The notes under the pieces were generated by a model. The model saw nothing but the letters and a program-made list of their open reading frames with translations. It searched no databases and was not told the origin of the DNA. From Zestomonas carbonaria (GTDB lineage: Bacteria > Pseudomonadota > Gammaproteobacteria > Pseudomonadales > Pseudomonadaceae): 64,000 nucleotides of DNA. Positions within the stretch are counted from its first letter, which is position 1. The number at the start of each line of letters is the position of its first letter. The stretch covers positions 1-64,000 of the forward strand of contig NZ_CAJFCI010000057.1 in the NCBI RefSeq assembly GCF_904061905.1, given 5' to 3'. Both the position numbers and the translations under genes were made by a program. Positions 55,833-58,699 of the stretch are shown one piece after another.

Positions 55833-55860
55833 ATTTCCAGGAAGTAGCCTGGATATCCCC

Positions 55861-55938
55861 GGTGGAAAACGCTTCGCGGTTTTCCACCCTACGCATGGGT
55901 ATCGTGACGTAGGGTGGACAACGTTTTACTTGTCCACC
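55861..55938. repeat. REP doublet 5' of the RAYT gene
   Basis: First unit 55861-55894: GGTGG then the palindromic core aaaacgcttcgcggtttt, then CCACCCTACGC. The second, inverted and diverged unit (55908-55938) begins CGTAGGGTGGACAACG. This is the head-to-head arrangement typical of REP doublets flanking a RAYT. Confidence 0.85.
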
Positions 55939-55979: not shown

Positions 55980-56513
55980 ATGTCCAACTACCGCCGCGCC
56001 CGCATTCCGGGAGCGACTTACTTCTTTACCGTGAACGTGAATGACCGAACCAGCGACCTGCTGGTTCGGGAGATCGACCTGCTCCGGGCCACGGTCCGTG
56101 CCACCAAAGCTCGTCATTCCTTCCATATCGATGCCTGGGTGGTGCTGCCCGAACACATGCACTGCTTGTGGACACTCCCCGAAGGCGATTCCAACTTCGC
56201 CCTGCGCTGGAAGGTCATCAAATTCGGTTTCGCCAAGCGTCTGCCGGTAACGGAGGCGCGAACCACCCCGCAACGCCAGCGCGGCGAGCGCGGCATCTGG
56301 CAGCGGCGCTATTGGGAACACCTGATCCGCGACGATCTCGACTACCAGCGACATTTCGATTACATCCACTTCAATCCGATCAAGCATGGATATGTAGAGC
56401 GGCTGATCGACTGGCCGTATTCGAGCTTTCACCGGGCGGTGCGAATGGGGGTTTATTCGCCGGACTGGTGCGGAGGTGTGGATTTGGCGGATGAGGGTTT
56501 TGGGGAAAGATGA
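55980..56513 (+). CDS. REP-associated tyrosine transposase (RAYT, TnpA_REP)
   Basis: 177 aa, Y1/IS200-related HUH nuclease. The HUH motif is in WVVLPEHMHCLWTLPEGD and the catalytic tyrosine is in the block LDYQRHFDYIHFNPIKHGYV; GIWQRRYWEHLI is another family signature. RAYTs are single-copy, domesticated transposase relatives thought to spread REP sequences. REP units flank it at 55861-55938 and 56520-56552. The gene looks intact. Confidence 0.95.
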   Translation: MSNYRRARIPGATYFFTVNVNDRTSDLLVREIDLLRATVRATKARHSFHIDAWVVLPEHMHCLWTLPEGDSNFALRWKVIKFGFAKRLPVTEARTTPQRQRGERGIWQRRYWEHLIRDDLDYQRHFDYIHFNPIKHGYVERLIDWPYSSFHRAVRMGVYSPDWCGGVDLADEGFGER

Positions 56514-56519
56514 AGGCAT

Positions 56520-56552
56520 GGTGGAAAACGCTTCGCGGTTTTCCACCCTACG
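56520..56552. repeat. REP unit 3' of the RAYT gene
   Basis: Same 33-nt palindrome as 55861 (core aaaacgcttcgcggtttt), starting 7 nt after the RAYT stop. Confidence 0.88.
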
Positions 56553-56646
56553 CCAATGAGGCGCCCGGGGCCCTGACCTCAAACCGATCGCTCCCACGCT
56601 CCGCGTGGGAACGCAGTCACGGACGCTCCCGCGTCCACCTGGTTAG

Positions 56647-58461
<1,815 letters not shown>

Positions 58462-58527
58462 AAGCCGGATACACCCACCCGATGAGTTGCCGCAGCGCGG
58501 CGCCGAGTCGGCACTGCATCGTGGCTA

Positions 58528-58581
58528 TCGGACTGGTGTGGAGGCGCGGATTTGGCAGAAGAAGGTTTTGGGGAGAGATGA
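58528..58581 (+). pseudogene. Remnant of a second RAYT gene (C-terminal tail)
   Basis: One frame reads SDWCGGADLAEEGFGER then TGA, nearly the same as the end of the intact RAYT (PDWCGGVDLADEGFGER). The nucleotides match over about 60 nt, and a REP unit follows 7 nt after the stop in both places. The rest of the gene is missing; upstream sequence is unrelated in this frame. Confidence 0.8.
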
Positions 58582-58587
58582 AGACGC

Positions 58588-58620
58588 GGTGGAAAACGCT
58601 TCGCGGTTTTCCACCCTACG
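58588..58620. repeat. REP unit between ligB and a lipoprotein gene
   Basis: Copy of the 33-nt REP (core aaaacgcttcgcggtttt) directly after the RAYT remnant. Confidence 0.88.
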
Positions 58621-58699
58621 CACAGGTCGCGGCAACGGAACCTTTGCATCGCTCCCGGCACTAATTCCGCACCGCCCCTCCAACGCCAGGAAACCCACC

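Follow-up and report, generated by a model that had tools for sequence, protein, structure and literature searches.

A RAYT gene tail and REP repeated downstream of a displaced ligB gene in Zestomonas carbonaria: probable relic of a tandemly duplicated RAYT-REP unit

The gene for a REP-associated tyrosine transposase (RAYT) of Zestomonas carbonaria is followed, about 2 kb downstream, by a second copy of its own 3' end, stop codon and REP. Most likely, with a probability of roughly 0.7, this segment (58529-58621 of the window, the whole stretch of 64,000 nucleotides that was analyzed) is what remains, at the 3' end, of another RAYT-REP unit that stood in tandem with the first. Behind this reading stand the repeat itself, the tandem and partial RAYT copies that recur in related genomes, and a moved and fused ligB gene located between the two copies. 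The case rests on analogy because the stretches fetched from 32 relatives, none of them close to this genome, did not include an intact second RAYT at precisely this position.

The intact gene (55980-56513, forward strand, 177 amino acids, 73-85% identical to its orthologs) passes the NCBIfam RAYT model NF047646 with 196 bits against a cut-off of 80 (E = 2.4e-58), and had no Pfam match at 0.001; on the strength of its sequence, we assign it as a REP-associated tyrosine transposase gene. It has REPs on both sides, oriented alike. Upstream, a 5' border (AAGTAGCCTGGATATCC, with GTAGCC at 55844) and a REPIN occupy positions 55842-55938, the REPIN consisting of a REP from 55862 followed by an inverted REP; border and REPIN are both present upstream of most relatives' RAYTs. 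Downstream, a REP on the reverse strand (56521-56553) starts 7 nt past the stop codon, with its GTAG end outward. This REP has at least 51 matches genome-wide (best 40 of 70 first-look candidates scored). The combination of a RAYT-family protein, an upstream REPIN, a downstream REP and a GTAG-ended REP repeated throughout the genome is that of a REPtron, that is, a RAYT gene with flanking GTAG REPs or REPINs, in the portions of PMC3116915, PMC2817692 and PMC3733652 considered here. Comparison was made with the RAYT neighborhoods of 32 relatives, which were picked from the best RAYT matches and are thus not a random sample. The nrdB gene lies upstream of RAYT on the same strand in the window and in 22 of these 32 stretches (in the other 10, it was not found within the fetched stretch), indicating that the window locus is the native RAYT locus.

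The segments 56461-56553 and 58529-58621 align without gaps on the same strand over 93 nt, with 83 identical bases (89%) and a start-to-start offset of 2068 nt, confirming the recurrence of RAYT tail, stop codon, 7-nt spacing and REP some 2 kb away that was noticed in the sequence-only reading. The repeat includes the RAYT codons from GAC to AGA (the last 16 and part of the 17th), TGA, 7 nt and the REP. In the downstream copy, the coding part extends to the stop codon on the forward strand (58529-58581, TGA at 58579-58581), and the REP, located on the reverse strand 7 nt further on (58589-58621), spans 58589 to CCCTACGC. The two spacers between stop codon and REP, AGGCATG and AGACGCG, are of equal length. 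The right end of the repeat is the outer end of the REP. The 34 bases at 58588-58621 are identical between the copies, an identity that is poorly informative because the REP is so abundant in the genome. On the left, homology breaks off sharply near 58528. The 67 nt that separate ligB from the tail (58462-58528) showed no significant match in the fetched loci, including ligB flanks and the loci of the second transposase discussed below, and a RAYT profile made from 19 genes (18 others and the window's) found nothing above shuffles upstream of 58528. Two candidate alignments of RAYT sequence 5' of the tail were rejected, as the score of the pairwise one was also reached by 44 of 1000 shuffles and the anchored one was ordinary (416 of 1000).

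The REP part of the repeat is by itself common in the genome, which would speak for chance similarity, but this explanation has a negligible probability considering the tail portion. At 58529-58586, 49 of 58 bases match the RAYT end, whereas the runner-up 58-mers of the 64-kb window reach 31 and 30 (forward and reverse strands, respectively), and a BLAST search of the 11-kb stretch around the RAYT unit, with that unit minus its 3' REP as the query, gave E = 7e-15 for the tail. The objection that the sequence-only reading had itself raised, that the repeat might be fortuitous, is thereby ruled out.

The tail and the live gene differ at 7 of 51 coding bases; six of the differences are at third positions and five are synonymous. 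With the RAYT of genome G341 as the outgroup, four changes were assigned to the live RAYT and two to the tail, with one unresolved; these counts are tiny, and the direction of one tail change is shaky because G341 does not share that codon. The tail is closest to the RAYT of its own genome, in a C-terminus that is highly variable across species. Although the numbers are small, the differences look like those between two genes that were both once functional, and the lower number of changes in the tail than in the live gene agrees with a second RAYT whose loss of function is fairly recent.

Further RAYT copies recur at this locus in the relatives. Each RAYT unit was searched against the stretch from which it came, at E values up to 1e-4, and 9 of the 32 relatives contain a further copy or coding piece of the same family, always in the same orientation. 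Near-full second copies were found in four relatives (G309, G698, G489 and G662, in the last of which the second copy is 7 kb away). Pieces of the 5' part were detected in G341 (27 and 6 ORF bases), G114, G309, G351, G489, G470 and G459, and in G681, RAYT itself is broken. Among the 33 loci, a 3' piece is present in the window only, the relatives showing 5' pieces or whole copies. In the best-scoring relative, G341 (RAYT 85% identical), the interval from RAYT to the lipoprotein gene, which holds the tail in the window, contains a RAYT leader that ends about at the start codon. When 378 genomes of the family were searched for closer relatives, the ligB DNA match with the best score was 75% identical. 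In a tree of 35 full RAYTs, in which 7 of 32 forks are firm and G654 and the second G662 copy are on long branches, the two copies of G309 belong to separate regions and those of G489 group together; placing the window's tail in this tree was given up, 17 codons being too short. The G309 locus (Pseudomonas benzenivorans, L147 4183-6582) contains two full RAYTs and a head fragment in tandem. The position of RAYT relative to the lipoprotein gene varies, given that in Pseudomonas sp. AOB-7, RAYT is located just after that gene (L095 8001-8936).

The gene that precedes the tail, and lies between the two RAYT tails, encodes LigB (56704-58461, forward strand, NF005987), the only LigB match in this genome. 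In all 16 RAYT-bearing relatives searched, ligB is on another contig or at about 1 Mb or more from RAYT, distances that draft contigs do not fix, and no full RAYT follows ligB in any of the 16. The gene preceding ligB in L166 is one that we take to be metK, and by eye, the ligB flanks of several other relatives resemble those of L166; the copy of this gene in the present genome has no ligB within 1.5 kb on either side. Judged from these sequence contexts, ligB has moved to this locus. Its N-terminus is fused: the ligB leader and codons 1-17 (56681-56755, forward strand, 75 nt) are 88% identical to the start of an MGRSR-type tyrosine transposase (L161 3759-3833), which is intact in G287 and G681. 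The fusion point lies at codon 17/18, and codon 17 of the window's ligB, a leucine, aligns with ATG in 14 of 21 ligB rows, two of which come from one genome. Two MGRSR proteins of G287 match Pfam Y1_Tnp weakly and pass NF047646 (94.5 and 94.6 bits, cut-off 80). Inverted palindromes delimit the G287 transposase on either side and, by eye, are unlike the GTAG REP; a similar palindrome, also read by eye, precedes the MGRSR transposases of G287 and G681. A palindrome of this kind (GATCGCTCCCACGCTCCGCGTGGGAACGC, 56586-56614, repeat family D8) survives in the window together with the leader (56586-56755). With a transposase-derived start and these remains next to it, ligB has the head of one transposase before it and the tail of a different one behind it. 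With its palindromes at both ends, the G287 element resembles the TIRtron with its TIRYT, as far as these are described in the part of PMC3733652 considered, from which the window differs in keeping only the palindrome, the leader and 17 codons, fused to ligB; set against that system, the MGRSR protein passes the same NCBIfam model as RAYT.

The position of ligB suggests another origin of the repeat, as a footprint of ligB arrival, either because ligB was imported together with the RAYT 3' end and REP of a related strain or through recombination at the RAYT tail or REP that left a tail-REP on either side of it. This would account for the location of ligB exactly between the tail-REP copies, at a site other than that in the 16 relatives, and for the fusion of its start to a transposase head, and in G287, a REP is indeed found shortly downstream of ligB. 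We nevertheless regard this scenario as unlikely: ligB adjoins no RAYT in the 16 relatives, so that no donor combining tail and ligB was seen, and the tail shares the variable C-terminus of its own genome's RAYT, not that of another species. Slightly less likely still, in our estimate, is joint movement of tail and REP as one unit, through one-ended REP mobilization reading into the gene. In its favor, the repeat stops on the right just where the REP has its outer end, and 5' RAYT heads accompany REPINs in relatives, in one case 2.07 Mb from RAYT. However, of the at least 51 REP matches in this genome, as scored, two carry a tail, both in this locus, so that the proposed search for further tail-bearing REPs gave none among those scored. 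When the left flanks of REPs were compared (33 distinct ones from 30 fetched loci), the two window tails scored 58 and the third best flank 13, within the shuffled range (maximum 15). A probe made of the RAYT end and REP, applied to 398 genomes of the genus with the best two candidates from each scored, retrieved G341, G400, two sites in G309, the window's RAYT and the site under study, tail-REPs elsewhere being retrieved only at full RAYTs. Thus, transport of the 3' end is without support beyond the site itself. A copy 2 kb off and pointing the same way is also what local duplication would produce, and a long-dead tail would be expected to exceed the live gene in changes, whereas it has fewer. 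Of the two options that the sequence-only reading left side by side, decay of a second RAYT is favored over travel of the tail with its REP, by the recurrence of tandem and partial copies in relatives, by the differences resembling those between once-functional genes, and by the lack of another REP with a tail among those scored. The suggestion that the mobile unit can include coding sequence gains no support for the 3' end beyond this site, although a related idea is supported by the 5' head that accompanies a distant REPIN in G341.

For the remnant of a second unit, we propose that a RAYT-REP unit formerly followed the surviving RAYT and was oriented like it, that it would have been a working gene for some time, and that it then lost its 5' part of about 160 codons. 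The loss probably occurred when ligB, fused to the start of the other, palindrome-flanked transposase, came between the units. That the second copy was once of full length, that events took this order and that the arrival of ligB caused the truncation is what we infer from the present arrangement. Duplication of RAYTs followed by loss has been proposed already (PMC3686654) and, as far as the part of that source considered goes, is the same process as would apply at the window locus; there, second RAYTs are at novel chromosomal sites, whereas the copies in the window and the relatives are local and tandem, with partial remnants. No title on a RAYT-tail-REP duplication was found among open-licence papers. 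The remnant adds a new case to a process that was to be expected, and the variant lies in the local recurrence and the head fragments. In contrast to the REPtron literature, the window and 9 of the 32 relatives hold further local copies or pieces of the unit. These recurrent copies bear on the description of RAYTs, in the part of PMC8049555 considered, as domesticated transposases that are present in single copy and make no copies of themselves. The tandem and partial copies at one locus form a natural set of junctions in which duplication and decay of REPtrons can be read, and with them it can be tested clearly whether they are products of the transposase; cleavage of REPs has been demonstrated for other TnpAREP proteins, according to the part of PMC8266576 considered. 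The ligB fusion, in turn, illustrates a RAYT locus taking up an unrelated chromosomal gene.

The head pieces in relatives offer some clues to how such copies could arise. In G114, G459 and G489, the head piece runs up to the left border of the following unit, and at these three joints (in L146, L221 and L219), RAYT sequence and border share an AGC; tandem duplication at short homologies and transposase-guided joining both fit. No such border is present at the end of the head pieces of G309, G351 and G470. In G287, no RAYT of the close kind was found beyond a head about 40 bases long, directly after which comes the palindrome-flanked MGRSR transposase (L161 6217-7090); a profile search for the 3' part of RAYT after the inserted transposase, as simple insertion would leave it, did not find one. 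It is conceivable, if unlikely, that the REP-RAYT unit of this clade is copied one-endedly, with one precise border and the other end inside RAYT, and that the pieces spread with REPs. Equally tentative are the identification of the precise border with either the left GTAGCC or the outer end of the right REP, and a spread of RAYT pieces mostly nearby and rarely far. If one-ended copying were real, RAYTs would copy themselves wholly or partly, beyond moving REPINs. In G341, border, REPIN, leader and RAYT head recur at two local sites and at one 2.07 Mb away, where the copy (L264 2266-2423, reverse strand; C1, about 3429578) consists of REPIN, leader and 21 ORF bases. A leader-head probe of 34 genomes detected a distant copy other than a full RAYT paralog in G341 only. 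The distant copy indicates that coding sequence from the 5' end of RAYT can occur with a distant REPIN, which is the novel part of these observations. The sequence just before this copy resembles what we take to be an integron attC site.
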